Shown here piece by piece: positions 1-28,221 of a DNA stretch of 64,000 nt (within the stretch, counting starts at the first letter, position 1; each line of letters starts with the position of its first letter). The notes beneath the pieces were generated by a model, which was not told the DNA's origin, did not search any database, and saw nothing but the letters and a program-made list of their open reading frames with translations. Origin of the DNA: Pelagibacteraceae bacterium AG-337-G06 (GTDB taxonomy: Bacteria > Pseudomonadota > Alphaproteobacteria > Pelagibacterales > AG-422-B15); contig QBZX01000008.1 of assembly GCA_003282175.1 (NCBI GenBank), positions 1-64,000 on the forward strand, written 5' to 3'. The translations under genes and the position numbers were made by a program.

Positions 1-1401
1 CAATACGCCATTATAACTCATTCTTTTTCTATCTTTAATATGACTACTGTTATAATCAACTAGTCGGTTTCCATCTAGATACTGCCTTCCAGATTTACAT
101 TGATCATATATGTAAGGTGAACCTGGTGCGAGCTGTAGAATATCACCATTAGATATTTGCATTGGAAACTGAACACCAAGTTCTTTTGCTAGAGAAGAGT
201 GTCTTTTTAAATGTCTAAACTCTCCATGCACAGGAACAGATATTTTTGGCTTTACATGTTCATACATATCTACCATTTCATCAAGACATGGATGTCCTGA
301 CACATGAATATCTTCATCATATTCGGTGATTACTTCAGCACCAAGTTCAGAAAGGCGATTAAATAGTTTAAATATTTTTTTCTCGTTGCCAGGAATAATT
401 TTGGATGAAAAAATTACACAATCATCTTGATCAATATCAATGTGTGGGAAATCTTGATTTGATATCCTCATCATTGCACCTCTTGGTTCCCCTTGACTAC
501 CAGTGCATAGGTAGAGAACCTCATGCTTTTTCTTTTTTGCAGCATCCTTTTCAGATAAGATAACATCTATATCTTTTAAAATTCCGTTTTGCCGTGCAAC
601 AGATATCATTCTATGCATTGATCGACCTAAAACAACCAGCGACCTCCCAGACTCTTTAGCGGCCGCAGCAATTGTTTCTAATCGCGCAACATTTGAAGCG
701 AATGAAGTAACGAAAACTCTATTTTTTAACTTTTTAATAACACCAGCAAGATTTCCTCGAACCGTCGATTCTGATCCCGAACGTCCACTTGTTAATACAT
801 TCGTTGAATCGCAAACCATTGCAAGCACTTCCTCACTATTTTCTTTTAATTGATTAAAATCAATTGACTCTCCTACAATAGGATTGTCATCAATTTTCCA
901 ATCACCAGTGTGATAAATGGTACCCAATTTTGTCTTAATGAATAAGGAATTTGGCTCTGGTATAGAATGTGTCAGTGTTTGAAATTTAATATCGAATGGT
1001 TTGATTTGAATTTCAGATGATAGATCAACTATATTTAATTTATCTTCAATATTTATACCCCTCTCCTCAAACTTTAATCTTATAATTGATGCAGTAAATG
1101 CAGTTGCATATATCGGACACTTCAAGTCTGGCCATAAATAAGCTAATCCACCGACATGGTCTTCATGGGCGTGAGTAATAATTATTCCTTGAAGATTTTC
1201 TTTTCTTTCTTTTATGAATTCATGGTCTGGTAGTATCACATCAACCCCAGGAGTTGTATCGTCTCCGAAAGTAATGCCTACATCGACAATTAGCCATTTC
1301 ATATCATCAATCTCATTGCCATAACCATAGAGATTCATGTTCATACCTATTTCTCCAGTTCCACCTAAAGGCAGAAAAACTAGTCTGCTATTTTTACTCA
1401 T
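1..1401 (-). CDS. rnj: Ribonuclease J, N-terminal part (runs off window start)
   Basis: This is a metallo-beta-lactamase/beta-CASP ribonuclease, a 5'-3' exo- and endonuclease acting in mRNA decay and rRNA maturation. The visible 467 residues begin MSKNSRLVFLPLGGTGEIGMN. They contain the zinc-binding HAHEDH motif (H77, H79, D81, H82), a second metal site HTGDWK and the beta-CASP segment. The C-terminus lies beyond base 1; relatives are about 550 residues, so roughly 85 are missing. The ATG at 1401 overlaps the coaX stop by 8 nt, which implies coupled translation at the end of the nuo-birA-coaX cluster. An RNase J in this position is typical of alphaproteobacteria. Confidence 0.93.
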   Translation of the reverse strand, partial: MSKNSRLVFLPLGGTGEIGMNMNLYGYGNEIDDMKWLIVDVGITFGDDTTPGVDVILPDHEFIKERKENLQGIIITHAHEDHVGGLAYLWPDLKCPIYATAFTASIIRLKFEERGINIEDKLNIVDLSSEIQIKPFDIKFQTLTHSIPEPNSLFIKTKLGTIYHTGDWKIDDNPIVGESIDFNQLKENSEEVLAMVCDSTNVLTSGRSGSESTVRGNLAGVIKKLKNRVFVTSFASNVARLETIAAAAKESGRSLVVLGRSMHRMISVARQNGILKDIDVILSEKDAAKKKKHEVLYLCTGSQGEPRGAMMRISNQDFPHIDIDQDDCVIFSSKIIPGNEKKIFKLFNRLSELGAEVITEYDEDIHVSGHPCLDEMVDMYEHVKPKISVPVHGEFRHLKRHSSLAKELGVQFPMQISNGDILQLAPGSPYIYDQCKSGRQYLDGNRLVDYNSSHIKDRKRMSYNGVL

Positions 1402-21988: not shown

Positions 21989-24397
21989 TCAATGAGTTAT
22001 TGGATTATCCACATCCTGCTCACTCTCTTCATCTTTTATCTCACTGGAGGACTTAGGCGATTCATCCTCATTCCACTCAATTGGAAGCAAAGGCTTAGTT
22101 AAGGCAATTTTTAATACTTCATCTACATTATCGACAAAGATCAGCTCAAGATCACTTTTAACATTATCAGGTATATCAGCCATATCTTTTTCATTTTCTT
22201 TTGGTATTATTACTGTTTTTGTCCCAGCTCTAAGTGCAGCTAATAATTTTTCTTTAAGCCCTCCAATGCCAAGAGCTTTTCCACGTAAAGTTACCTCACC
22301 TGTCATTGCAATATCTTTTCTAACAGGGATACCAGTTAAAACAGAAACAATTGAAGTCACCATGCCAAGGCCAGCAGATGGTCCGTCTTTAGGTATAGCA
22401 CCTTCTGGAACGTGAATATGAATATCTCTTAGTGGAAAAATAGTAGGCTTAATCCCAAACTCTATGCATCTTGAGCGAACATATGACTTAGCTGCCTGAA
22501 TTGACTCTTTCATTACATCGCCTAACTTTCCAGTTATGGTCATCCTGCCCTTACCCGGCATGATAACAGACTCAATTGGCAATATATCCCCACCAACCTC
22601 TGTCCAAGCAAGACCAGTCACAATTCCAACTTGATCATCATTATCAATTTCGCCGTACTTGAACTTACGAACACCAGCAAAGTCATTCAAATTATTTTCA
22701 TCAATTTTTATTGATGCGACTTCACCGGCTACAATTTTCTTTACAGTTTTACGCGCAAGATTTGACAGCTCTCTCTCGAGACTTCTCACTCCAGCTTCAC
22801 GTGTATAATATCTAATTAAACCTAAAATCGCTGAGTCATCTAAAAGAAGCTCATCTTTTTTTAGACCATGTTTTTCAAGCATCTGGGGTGCAAGGTGTTG
22901 CTTCACAATTTCCAATTTTTCATTTTCTGTGTAACCCGCAATTCTGATAATTTCCATCCTGTCCAATAATGCTGGCGGCATTCTCAATGTATTAGCAGTT
23001 GTAATAAACATGGTATCAGACAAGTCATAATCAACTTCAAGATAATGATCATTGAAAGAGTTATTTTGCTCTGGATCTAACACTTCAAGTAAAGCCGATG
23101 AAGGATCACCCCTGTAGTCAGCCCCAAGTTTATCGATCTCATCTAGTAAGAACAAAGGATTAGAGGAACCTGCTTTTTTCATCATTTGTAAAACCTTACC
23201 AGGCAAGGATCCAATATAAGTTCTTCTGTGACCTCTAATCTCTGCCTCATCACGCACACCACCAAGTGACATACGAACGAACTTTCTTCCAGTAGAGCGA
23301 GCAATAGATTTACCTAATGATGTCTTTCCGACACCTGGAGCGCCAACTAAACAAAGGATTGGCCCTTTCATTTTTTTTATTCTTTGCTGAACTGCTAAGT
23401 ATTCAAGAATTCTTTCTTTTACTTTTTCTAAGCCATAATGATCTTCATTAAGAACTTTCTCCGCAAAATTAATATCTTTTTTAACTTTTGTCTTCTTGTT
23501 CCAAGGTATGGTTAAAATCCAATCAAGGTAGTTACGTATCACGCTTGATTCGGCCGACATAGGACTCATCGACTTCAATTTTTTCATCTCAGCGTAACAC
23601 TTTTCTCGAGCTTCTTTGGACAATTTTGTTGTCTCAATTTTTTCCTCATATTCCTGAACATCATCCTTGCCATCTTCACCTTCACCAAGTTCTTTCTGGA
23701 TCGCTTTCATTTGCTCATTCAAATAATACTCTCTTTGAGTTTTCTCCATTTGGTTTTTTACCCGTCCTCTGATCTTCTTTTCTACTTGCATCACATCAAG
23801 TTCAGCTTGAATAAAATTCATAATCTTATGAAAACGATCTGACAGATCTATCGCTTCTAATATTTCTTGTTTGTCAGAAAGTTTGATAGATAAGTGAGAT
23901 GCAATCGTATCACTTAACTTGGATAGGTCATCTATCTCATTTATTGTTCCTATTACTTCTGGAGGAATTTTTTTATTTAAGCTTACATATTTATCAAACG
24001 ACTCAGTAATTGATTTAGATTGTGCTCTTATTTTTTTATCTGTAGTGTCTATATTCTCATCAATTAAATCAATATTAGACTCAAGATAAGTTTCCTTATC
24101 AGTAAACATATTAATTGTAGCGCGTTGTAATCCCTCTACTAAAACCTTAACTGTGCCATCAGGAAGCTTCAATAACTGCAAAACATTTGCTACTGTTCCA
24201 AAATCAAATAAATCATCCTTTTTAGGATCATCGACAGATGCTTTTTTTTGCGTAATTAACATAATACGCTTGTCACCAGCCATTACCTTTTCAAGTGCTT
24301 TTACAGATTTATCTCTGCCAACAAAAAGGGGAACTACCATGTGAGGAAACACAACAATGTCTCTAAGGGGCAAAACTGGAATATTATTTTCAGTCAT
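21989..24397 (-). CDS. lon: ATP-dependent protease Lon
   Basis: Lon degrades misfolded and regulatory proteins in the cytoplasm. The N-terminal substrate domain starts IPVLPLRDIVVFPH. The coiled region is followed by Walker A GAPGVGKT (352-359), Walker B FLLDEIDK, and the protease domain with catalytic S674 in PKDGPSAGLGM and K717 in GGLKEKLL. The 802-residue length is normal; the last 35 residues are acidic and serine-rich. A sigma-32-like promoter lies at 24477-24504. It follows clpX with a 127-nt gap, so it can be transcribed independently. Confidence 0.97.
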   Translation of the reverse strand: MTENNIPVLPLRDIVVFPHMVVPLFVGRDKSVKALEKVMAGDKRIMLITQKKASVDDPKKDDLFDFGTVANVLQLLKLPDGTVKVLVEGLQRATINMFTDKETYLESNIDLIDENIDTTDKKIRAQSKSITESFDKYVSLNKKIPPEVIGTINEIDDLSKLSDTIASHLSIKLSDKQEILEAIDLSDRFHKIMNFIQAELDVMQVEKKIRGRVKNQMEKTQREYYLNEQMKAIQKELGEGEDGKDDVQEYEEKIETTKLSKEAREKCYAEMKKLKSMSPMSAESSVIRNYLDWILTIPWNKKTKVKKDINFAEKVLNEDHYGLEKVKERILEYLAVQQRIKKMKGPILCLVGAPGVGKTSLGKSIARSTGRKFVRMSLGGVRDEAEIRGHRRTYIGSLPGKVLQMMKKAGSSNPLFLLDEIDKLGADYRGDPSSALLEVLDPEQNNSFNDHYLEVDYDLSDTMFITTANTLRMPPALLDRMEIIRIAGYTENEKLEIVKQHLAPQMLEKHGLKKDELLLDDSAILGLIRYYTREAGVRSLERELSNLARKTVKKIVAGEVASIKIDENNLNDFAGVRKFKYGEIDNDDQVGIVTGLAWTEVGGDILPIESVIMPGKGRMTITGKLGDVMKESIQAAKSYVRSRCIEFGIKPTIFPLRDIHIHVPEGAIPKDGPSAGLGMVTSIVSVLTGIPVRKDIAMTGEVTLRGKALGIGGLKEKLLAALRAGTKTVIIPKENEKDMADIPDNVKSDLELIFVDNVDEVLKIALTKPLLPIEWNEDESPKSSSEIKDEESEQDVDNPITH

Positions 24398-24524: not shown

Positions 24525-25793
24525 CTAAGCGCTTGTTTCAGAAGACTTTTTAGTATCTGAATAAATGTACAAAGGTCTTGCTCTTCCTTCAGCCACTTCC
24601 GCATTAATCACAACTTCTTCAACGCCCTCAAGAGATGGAAGTTCAAACATTGTGTCCAAAAGAATATTTTCAAGAATTGACCTTAGCCCCCTTGCTCCAG
24701 TTTTTCTATCAATCGCTTTATTTGCAATCACGCTTAAAGCATCTTTTGATAAAATTAGTTTAACATCCTCCATTCCAAATAATGTTTGATATTGTTTAAC
24801 AAGTGCATTTTTAGGTTCTTGAAGAATTTTCATCAATGATTCCTCATCAAGATCTGTTAATGTTGTCACAATTGGCAATCTTCCCACAAACTCTGGTATT
24901 AGACCATAATTCAACAAGTCTTCTGGCTCTAAGTCCATAAGGCTATTGCCTCCAGATTTCTCTTCATATTTTTTTACATTAGCTTGAAATCCGATACCGG
25001 TACCTTTAGATCTTTTATTAATCAATTTATCAAGACCTGAGAACGCACCTCCACAGATGAAAAGTATATTTGTAGTATCAACTTGAAGGAATTCTTGCTG
25101 GGGATGTTTTCTTCCACCTTGTGGCGGCACACTTGCAACAGTGCCTTCCATTATTTTTAAAAGAGCTTGCTGAACGCCTTCACCTGAAACATCTCTTGTA
25201 ATTGAAGGGTTTTCAGATTTTCGACTTACCTTGTCAATTTCATCAATGTATACAATACCTCTTTGTGCTCTTTCTACATTGTAATCTGAAGCTTGAAGAA
25301 GCTTTAAAATTATATTTTCTACATCCTCTCCTACATAACCGGCTTCAGTAAGAGTAGTGGCATCAGCCATTGTGAAAGGGACATCTAAAATTCGAGCCAA
25401 AGTTTGAGCTAGTAGAGTCTTTCCGCATCCCGTTGGGCCAATTAACAAAATGTTTGACTTAGAAAGTTCTACATCAGATTTAAAACTTGAATGCTCAATT
25501 CTTTTATAATGATTGTGTACCGCAACTGAAAGATTGTATTTAGCATCCTTTTGACCGATTACAAAATCGTCAAGAGTCTCACAAATCTCTTTTGGAGTAG
25601 GAATTCGACTTGACGACTTGGCTTTTGTCTCTTTATTTTCTTCTTGTATAATATCGTTACATAATTCAACACACTCATCACAAATAAATACTGTAGGACC
25701 CGCAATGAGCTTTTTTACCTCATGCTGACTTTTGCCGCAAAAAGAGCAATAAAGTGTGTTCTTACTTTTATTATTGTTACTATTTTCAACCAT
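24525..25793 (-). CDS. clpX: ClpX, ATPase subunit of ClpXP
   Basis: ClpX is an AAA+ unfoldase that feeds tagged proteins to ClpP. The N-terminal zinc-binding domain has the two pairs CSFC and CDEC. Walker A is GPTGCGKT, Walker B is VYIDEIDK, and the pore loop GYVG lies in [10 protein letters not shown]. The IGF-type ClpP contact loop is in the region KGTGIGFQ. Length is 422 residues. It lies 125 nt downstream of clpP on the same strand. Confidence 0.97.
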
Positions 25794-25918: not shown

Positions 25919-26542
25919 CTATTTCTCAATTTTTGGTGTAATACGTTTTTCTTGTATGCTGTCAATTATGCCAAAGTTTTGAGCTTCAATTGGCGACATG
26001 AAATTATCTCTCTCTAACGCTTCTTCGATAGCTTCAACTGATTGTCCTGTATGCATTGAGTAAATTTTATTAAGATTAGATTTCTGTGCTAAAACTTCCT
26101 TTGCATGTATTTCTATATCAGTAGCCTGTCCCTGAAAACCTGCCGAAGGCTGGTGTACCATAATTCTGCTATTTGGAAGAGCAAATCTTTTATCTTTTTC
26201 TCCCGCAGCAAGTAAAAATGATCCCATAGAAGCAGCTTGCCCAAAACAAAGAGTTGAAACAGGTGATTGAATGAATTGCATTGTATCATAAATTGCTAAC
26301 CCATCACTGACAACGCCGCCAGGTGAATTTATGTATAAAGATATTTCTTTCTCAGGGTTTTCTGACTCTAAAAATAAAAGCTGAGCAGAAACCAACGATG
26401 CCATGCTATCATTTACTGGACCAACTAAAAAAATAATTCTTTCCTTGAGAAGCCTAGAGTAAATATCAAAAGCCCTTTCTCCTCTTCCAGTTTGCTCTAC
26501 CACCATAGGCACTAGCTGACTAAATATTTTATTACTATCCAT
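25919..26542 (-). CDS. clpP: ClpP protease subunit
   Basis: This serine protease forms the double-heptamer degradation chamber used with ClpX. The catalytic triad is S105 ([10 protein letters not shown]), H130 ([10 protein letters not shown]) and D179 (ALERDNFM). The 207-residue length includes a short N-terminal propeptide region ending near [10 protein letters not shown]. It starts 4 nt after the tig stop, so tig and clpP are probably one transcript. Confidence 0.97.
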
Positions 26543-26546
26543 TTTA

Positions 26547-27965
26547 TTATTTAGATTTTTTCTTAACTGTTTTCTTTTTAGCAGTCTTCTTTTTCGGAGG
26601 TGATTTTTTTACCTCATTAACGTTATTGTAAAGCTTAATAAAAGAATCAACGTCAACTTCTTTTATCTTCAATTTAACCTTAGATAAAATAAAGTCTACA
26701 ATTTTGTTTTCATATAATGGCGCTTGTAGTTGCATTGAGGCTTCTTGATTATTTCTATAATAATCAATTACTTTTTGCTCTTGCCCTTTAAAGTTGCTAG
26801 CATACTCAAATAAAGCCTTATTCATTTCTTCAGGAGTTACGGATATTTTATTTACCTTACCTATTTCCTGTAAGATAAGACCCATTTCAATTCTATTTAT
26901 TGCATCCTCCTTGAATTTTTTTTCGTTTTCAGATGAAAGTTTATTTTCTTTTATTTCCTTTTGATGGTCAATTGAAGAAGGGTTTTGAGATTGTAGATAA
27001 TTAGCTGATAAATTTTTAAATTCAGCTTCGATCAAATCTTGTGGCAATTCAAAATTGTGAATTTTTTGAAGTTTCTCAAATAAGTTTTTCTTATCTAAGT
27101 TTTTAGTTAAATCGCTGTACTCAGTTTTCATCTGAGTTTCTACTTTGGATTTTAAATCCTTTAAATCTTCGGCGCCCATTGATTTTGCTAAAGCATCATT
27201 AACTTTAGACTCTTCAGGTGAACTTACTTTCTTAATTTCGCATTGAAATACTGCATCTGCATTCTGCAGTTCTTTTGCATTATAATCAGCAGGAAACTTA
27301 ACTTTGACATTTTTTTTATCACCTTTTTTGCATCCTACTAATCCATCTTCAAGATCTTTTATGTATCTGCCTGAGCCTAGAACTATTGTTTGATTCTCAG
27401 CCTTACCTCCGTCAAAATTTTTTCCATCAATTGTACCTTCGTAATCAAGTAAGATAGAATCATCTTTTTTTGACTTATAATCATCCGGTTTTTCTTTATA
27501 AATTCTTTGAGATTTTGCAATCATCTCTATTCGTTTATCGATTTCTTTTTTATCAAGTTTTACTGTGGTAGATTCAATTTCGATCTTTTCAAAACTAGCT
27601 ATCTCTATTTCAGGAAAAAGTTCAAATTCAATTTTGAAAACTTTGTCATTATCAGGCTTATCATCTTTTTCGTTTTTAAAATCCACTTTTGGTTGCGACA
27701 CTGGTCTATATTTATTTTCTTGAATAATTTTTGAAACATTTTCATTAACTACAGCATTGAGTACCTCTGCATTAATTGCTTCACCATGTTTTTGCATGAT
27801 AATATTATTTGGAACTTTACCAGGTCTGAATCCATCAACCTTAATAGTTTTTTTTATTTCCTCAATTTTTGCATTGAGACTTTTATTGTATACATCTGCA
27901 GCAACAGTGAATTCGTATCCTCTTTTAAGTCCTTTATTTAATGTTTCTTTATAATTCATACTCAT
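26547..27965 (-). CDS. tig: Trigger factor with Lys-rich C-terminal tail
   Basis: Trigger factor is the ribosome-bound chaperone and prolyl isomerase. The N-terminal ribosome-docking region contains GFRPGKVP. The FKBP-like domain follows from about residue 165 ([20 protein letters not shown]), and the long helical chaperone arms make up the rest. The last 20 residues are a Lys/Pro-rich tail ([13 protein letters not shown]...), which is not part of the standard fold. The ATG is only 4 nt after the encoded CCA of tRNA-Leu and has no ribosome binding site; a second ATG two codons on is an alternative start. Length is 472 residues. Confidence 0.94.
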
Positions 27966-27969
27966 TTTT

Positions 27970-28054
27970 TGGTGCGGATAGAGGGACTCGAACCCCCATG
28001 AGTTGCCTCACTGGTACCTAAAACCAGCGTGTCTACCAATTCCACCATATCCGC
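27970..28054 (-). tRNA. tRNA-Leu (TAG)
   Basis: The class II cloverleaf has acceptor GCGGATA/TATCCGC, D arm TGGTGGAATTGGTAGACACG, anticodon stem CTGGT with loop TTTAGGT (anticodon TAG), a long variable arm, T loop GTTCGAGTC, discriminator A and encoded CCA. Trigger factor begins 4 nt downstream. Confidence 0.97.
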
Positions 28055-28221
28055 GATTAATAGAAAATGCAAAATAGACTATTTCTCAACAGTTTACATC
28101 TATTTTTTTATCTAGCTAAGGTTTTGGTTTAAGAGGTTTTTATTTATAATGATAGAGATATCTAGGAAATTTAGCGACATTTCAGTTGGGTCATTAATAT
28201 AAATTTCTTAATTAAAAATAA

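Follow-up and report, generated by a model that had tools for sequence, protein, structure and literature searches.

The window, the whole 64,000-nucleotide stretch of DNA analysed here, comes from a SAR11 genome of 1.27 Mb in 20 contigs. On its minus strand, a tRNA-Leu gene with anticodon UAG is followed almost immediately by tig, the gene for trigger factor, and further downstream by clpP, clpX and an ORF resembling Lon (Table 1). The tig ORF, read from the first of two candidate start codons (26547-27965), matches the trigger factor model TIGR00115 with an E-value of 7e-111 and a whole-protein score of 370.9 bits, above the curated cut-off of 180.2, and covers positions 1-410 of 410. A search for a phage relative of this tig matched 23 records, every one at less than 60% identity. 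Upstream of the tRNA lies a long subtilase-like ORF that, judging from its sequence, is possibly a surface or autotransporter-like protease.

Table 1 Features at and around the tRNA-Leu–tig junction, in window coordinates
Feature	Position	Strand	Remarks
Lon-like protease ORF	21989..24397	minus	downstream of clpX; named from its sequence alone
clpX	24525-25793	minus	downstream of clpP
clpP	25919-26542	minus	downstream of tig; starts 4 nt past the stop codon of tig
tig, trigger factor	26547..27959	minus	conserved ATG 27959 to stop codon; alternative upstream start 27965
CCA-to-start linker, 10 nt, AAAAATGAGT	27960..27969	minus	contains in-frame ATG 27965-27963; without Shine-Dalgarno
tRNA-Leu, anticodon UAG	27970..28054	minus	ARAGORN; encoded 3' CCA at 27972-27970
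29-nt block AATAGTCTATTTTGCATTTTCTATTAATC	28055..28083	minus	directly 5' of tRNA-Leu; probable tRNA–tig promoter core, as its conservation suggests
Subtilase-like ORF, 1067 aa	28222-31425	minus	167 nt upstream of tRNA-Leu; weak mycosin match

Read 5' to 3' on the minus strand, the end of the tRNA, CCGCACCA, is followed by AAAA (27969-27966) and then by ATG AGT ATG AAT TAT AAA GAA, in which the first ATG occupies 27965-27963 and a second, in-frame ATG occupies 27959-27957. The first-pass annotation had described this arrangement, with a CCA ending at 27970, AAAA and an ATG at 27965 lacking a Shine-Dalgarno sequence, and the sequence, ARAGORN and calculated pairing with the 16S tail all agree with that description.

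The tRNA-Leu–tig pair is old and compressed in SAR11

We compared the junction across relatives of increasing distance. Within the genus, 43 genomes were searched and 32 had a tig match; 30 loci were taken and 28 were readable, the two dropped being L010, which lacks upstream DNA, and L029, in which the tig frame is broken. L031-L061 look like public copies of the genomes behind L001-L030 and were left out of the counts. At the level of the order, 296 genomes were searched, 262 had a match and 69 loci from 68 genomes were read, with L208, a repeat of genome G309, dropped from the order count. Together with 2 family-level and the 28 genus-level loci, these make up 99 SAR11 loci (98 genomes; one locus was fetched twice).

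In 99 of 99 SAR11 loci, tig is preceded by a tRNA-Leu(tag) gene in the same orientation. The gap between the two is 4-21 nt (median 9 nt) in 95 of the 98 genomes, and the three exceptions are G053 (54 nt) and two prophage carriers, G310 and G275, described below. Outside SAR11, the pair was present in 28 of 30 alphaproteobacterial loci, the best-scoring ones from 115 genomes searched rather than a random draw, with gaps of 32-384 nt; the SAR11 gaps are shorter than these (Mann-Whitney p 4e-15). In a phylum-level sample (80 genomes searched, 27 new loci read, likewise chosen as best-scoring), tRNA-Leu(tag) stands within 600 nt upstream of tig in 8 of 22 non-alphaproteobacterial loci and in 4 of 5 further alphaproteobacterial loci. 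Judged by its retention in all SAR11 loci and in nearly all of the other alphaproteobacterial ones, the adjacency is far beyond chance, and the SAR11, class and phylum loci taken together indicate that the pair is old and has been compressed in SAR11.

The linker itself is 87% A+T and differs among SAR11 genomes in both length and sequence. Thus the exact 4-nt gap with AAAA, whose conservation had been put forward as a check on the first-pass annotation, is not kept, the closest relatives sharing the second ATG alone. Long leaders, which that annotation had named as evidence against its proposal, occur outside SAR11 and otherwise in just the three exceptions. G053 (L097) is the sole prophage-free SAR11 locus with a long linker; its 54 nt hold an SD-like AAAAAGG, and it may represent an independent gain of a leader. 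Two irregularities were seen within the genus, a second tig piece of 59 aa on the opposite strand in G030 (C12:10554-10730) and the broken tig frame of L029 (G033:C11); both are probably artefacts of single-cell amplification or assembly.

Probable transcription and processing of the junction

The 29-nt block adjoining the 5' end of the tRNA gene is identical in 27 of 28 genus loci. Among 68 other SAR11 genomes of the order, a TATA-like element lies 21-36 nt before tRNA-Leu in 58, and 23 carry TTGGACA with TATA following at 15-22 nt. A consensus promoter scan of the minus strand scored no sigma-70 site from 28055 to 28221 or within tRNA-Leu, so the promoter function of the block rests on its conservation. 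By length, the 4-21 nt linker has no room for a separate promoter, and one may lie inside the tRNA gene. With a conserved promoter-like block ahead of the tRNA and a gap too small for a promoter, tRNA-Leu and tig are most likely co-transcribed.

To consider how such a transcript would be divided, we searched ten genus genomes for candidate processing enzymes. RNase E scored above cut-off in 10 of 10. RNase Z was above cut-off in 0 of 10, with matches staying far below; the top-scoring protein in the window's own genome, a 356-aa metallo-hydrolase of the MBL type whose N-terminus is hydrophobic, reaches 100.7 bits against a cut-off of 292.95. RNase Z, although its cut would be the cleanest, is therefore unsupported as the enzyme responsible. 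In the available parts of two RNA mapping studies, on E. coli (PMC4681348) and P. acnes (PMC3848588), the first 3' cuts are endonucleolytic and fall a few nucleotides downstream of the encoded CCA, with exonuclease trimming afterwards. At the SAR11 junction, a few nucleotides past the CCA means the linker or the start codon itself, and a tRNA 3' cut would probably leave tig mRNA with a leader of roughly 0-10 nt. RNase E may instead cut inside tig. A minus-strand ORF elsewhere in the window (958-1401) shows similarity to RNase J family models across its N-terminal 147 residues and is a candidate 5' exonuclease that could act on monophosphorylated messages.

The explanation that we favour, with a probability of about 0.6, is that an ancient proteobacterial tRNA-Leu(UAG)–tig pair has been streamlined in SAR11 such that the two genes are co-transcribed and cut apart, giving a tig mRNA with a short leader and no Shine-Dalgarno sequence. 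RNA polymerase would start just upstream of tRNA-Leu and read into tig and possibly clpP. RNase P would make the 5' end of the tRNA, an endonuclease, most likely RNase E, would cut the A/U-rich linker a few nucleotides past the CCA, and 3' exonucleases would then trim the tRNA. The downstream piece, carrying about 0-10 nt ahead of the start codon, would serve as the tig message, and ribosomes would begin chiefly at the ATG at 27959, by leaderless or non-SD initiation. This scheme draws on what was observed (the sequence, start conservation, synteny, gaps, upstream block, lack of a Shine-Dalgarno sequence and presence of RNase E), and co-transcription, the cut, the 5' end and the mode of initiation are what we infer from it. 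Of the single transcript and cut proposed in the first-pass annotation, release of a short-leader tig mRNA is thus retained as likely, consistent with the short gap across SAR11, and the leader of exactly 4 nt is given up.

Close packing behind tRNA genes in the streamlined genome

We asked how far a short gap behind a tRNA is particular to tig. The window's own genome has 34 tRNAs by Rfam, of which 33 were confirmed by ARAGORN, with CCA encoded in 33 of 33. An ORF begins at most 15 nt behind the CCA in 8 of these 33: tig (10 nt), a PAD-family enzyme (6 nt), a 2OG oxygenase (7 nt), a Sel1-repeat protein (8 nt), an EamA transporter (10 nt), a chorismate-binding enzyme (11 nt), an ORF without a Pfam match (13 nt) and SecE (15 nt). 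In a second SAR11 genome, G064, the same holds for 5 of 17 readable tRNAs (of 32), and in a non-SAR11 alphaproteobacterium, G352, for 0 of 18 tRNAs read (of 41). The short tRNA–tig gap is ordinary for its genome, which is streamlined and characterized by tight spacing; the count of 8 in 33 points to a pattern of streamlining rather than a tig-specific switch. In G064, a histidyl-tRNA-synthetase-like ORF starts 5 nt behind tRNA-His (L221:1811-3073), placing a gene of the synthetase family next to a tRNA for the same amino acid.

Packing alone could account for the junction, with the gap reflecting no more than deletion of spacer and tig either having a transcription start site inside the tRNA gene or being translated from an uncut chimera. 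We regard this as doubtful, although it has several observations in its favour: same-strand ORFs in the window are separated by a median of 4.5 nt (23 of 38 gaps at most 21 nt), in predicted folds the tig starts stay partly open although the tRNA is still joined to them, and the two prophage carriers retain tig beside a broken tRNA. However, no promoter-like site was scored on the minus strand inside tRNA-Leu, the conserved promoter-like elements stand before the tRNA instead, and a chimera left uncut at the junction cannot supply a mature tRNA together with a whole tig message. We therefore retain co-transcription followed by cutting as the preferred reading.

Start codon and initiation of tig

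Methionine is kept at the position of the second ATG in all 28 genus loci in which both the tRNA and the tig start could be read, with linkers of 7, 10, 13 or 21 nt from the CCA to this conserved start. An in-frame ATG at +4 is found in just 4 of the 28 (L001, L002, L003 and L008), which belong to one group. These counts argue that the main tig start is probably not the ATG at the 4-nt gap and that the conserved start at 27959, with a gap of 10 nt, is the better one. The second ATG had been offered in the first-pass annotation as a possible substitute, and it is now the favoured start. That the ATG at 27965 is nevertheless the true start, with an almost leaderless mRNA and the second ATG internal, appears improbable. 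Of the AUGs downstream of the cut it would come first, and an AUG at or close to the mRNA 5' end is preferred in leaderless initiation (PMC9031893), but the ATG at 27965 is absent from 24 of the 28 loci, four of which read TAAAAAGAAT in its place.

Neither ATG has a Shine-Dalgarno sequence. The 16S tail keeps a complete anti-SD, GGATCACCTCCTTT (L175), and its calculated pairing is +1.9 kcal/mol at the first ATG and -2.2 kcal/mol at the second. Use of such pairing in the window is modest, with 17 of 51 ORFs reaching -3.5 kcal/mol or better compared with 18% in shuffles. At the tig start, SD-like pairing of -3.45 kcal/mol or better was found in 8 of 98 SAR11 genomes versus 16 of 28 other alphaproteobacteria. 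The clearest SAR11 cases, in genera g9 and g10, fit the Shine-Dalgarno within the linker (L079, L082 and L084), indicating that leaderless initiation is not general in SAR11. In a Caulobacter study (PMC4117421), a Shine-Dalgarno sequence precedes just 24.6% of starts and messages without one are translated as well as those with one.

Because the start is left partly open in the predicted fold of the joined tRNA–tig RNA, translation may be possible without a cut. We also considered whether base pairing in the joined RNA hides the start and set this aside, as folding of 20 of the 99 SAR11 loci gave no consistent effect.

Relation to known tRNA–mRNA linkages

In the E. coli tRNA–tufB operon, tRNAs and a translation-related protein gene share one transcript that is split by tRNA processing, and the tufB mRNA keeps a proper leader and Shine-Dalgarno sequence. 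The SAR11 pair is alike in joining a tRNA to a translation-related gene but keeps just 4-21 nt between them. In mitochondria, tRNAs directly abut ORFs and cuts at the tRNAs define mRNA 5' ends, an arrangement known as tRNA punctuation that uses RNase Z and tRNAs without an encoded CCA. In the window's genome, 8 of 33 tRNAs stand within 15 nt of an ORF, where cuts at the tRNAs would likewise define mRNA 5' ends; unlike in mitochondria, CCA is encoded in every confirmed tRNA, and RNase Z exceeds its cut-off in none of the ten genus genomes. The tRNA-Leu–tig junction is a variant of a known tRNA–mRNA linkage, produced by genome streamlining, and predicts that SAR11 has many processed messages with short leaders.

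Leaderless or short-leader mRNAs have been described in alphaproteobacteria, with 375 leaderless mRNAs in Caulobacter translated as well as those with leaders (PMC4117421) and 171 in S. meliloti, as far as the accessible text of these sources goes. Their coding sequences open at or close to the mRNA 5' end without a Shine-Dalgarno sequence, as is predicted for tig here. Their 5' ends, however, are mapped mainly as transcription starts at the start codon, whereas the tig end here is predicted from cutting. A search of open-licence papers found no description of tRNA–tig co-processing in SAR11, which is no proof of absence.

Should the cut take place, SAR11, whose cells rank among the most numerous in the ocean, would make some of its short-leader messages by trimming tRNAs rather than from promoters, and tRNA maturation would be tied by default to expression of a chaperone or secretion gene. 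Even without a cut, the tRNA-Leu–tig pair is dated to before SAR11, and streamlining is seen to remove the spacer and, in most lineages, the ribosome-binding site. A broader and more speculative possibility, which we think rather unlikely, is that SAR11 generally uses tRNA 3' processing to make mRNA 5' ends. Under such a scheme, about a quarter of tRNAs would release leaders of 4-15 nt through RNase E acting on CCA-encoding tRNAs, as a counterpart of mitochondrial punctuation in which tig is the most conserved case.

Prophages that split the tRNA-Leu gene

The SAR11 tRNA-Leu(TAG) adjoining trigger factor is a known pelagiphage integration site, as stated in the available part of PMC6811365, and the same tRNA and neighbour gene are involved here. 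The window's own locus is unoccupied. In G310, a podovirus-like prophage (integrase, terminase and internal virion protein) splits tRNA-Leu(TAG), and both ends were read: the 5' half of the host tRNA lies near 287.3 kb and the 3' half at tig, with the prophage between them and the phage's own tRNA-Leu 164 nt before tig. In G275, of which the tig-side end alone was read, that end is the same, at 167 nt.

Judged from these sequences, the host tRNA cannot release tig by maturing at its own CCA in G310 and G275. As tig is kept behind a broken tRNA, host tRNA maturation is not essential for tig if the carriers are viable lysogens, and these genomes are the strongest evidence against a strict dependence of tig on tRNA maturation. 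The first-pass annotation had suggested that expression of the chaperone would depend on tRNA maturation; with the tRNA broken in both carriers and seven other tRNAs of the window's genome equally packed, that idea is unsupported. A regulatory coupling in which tRNA maturation gates tig, so that its expression follows tRNA processing capacity, is very improbable, for although the pair is very old, its order is constant in SAR11 and the linker is at least 4 nt and lacks a Shine-Dalgarno sequence in most SAR11 genomes, that linker is free to vary in length and sequence, the seven genes equally close behind other tRNAs are functionally unrelated, both carriers keep tig behind a tRNA half, and no mechanism makes cleavage limiting.

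Since the tRNA of the preferred co-transcription and cutting scheme is also the phage attachment site, lysogeny remodels the upstream end of the tig transcription unit. The two carriers (L195, G310:C1:248800-266000, and L202, G275) belong to different genera and have nearly the same phage tRNA-Leu and flank at tig, with the host tRNA-Leu reduced to its 3' half beside the gene. The closest matches to the G310 integrase are the integrases of the Pelagibacter phages Gjalp and Eyrgjafa, at 38% identity.
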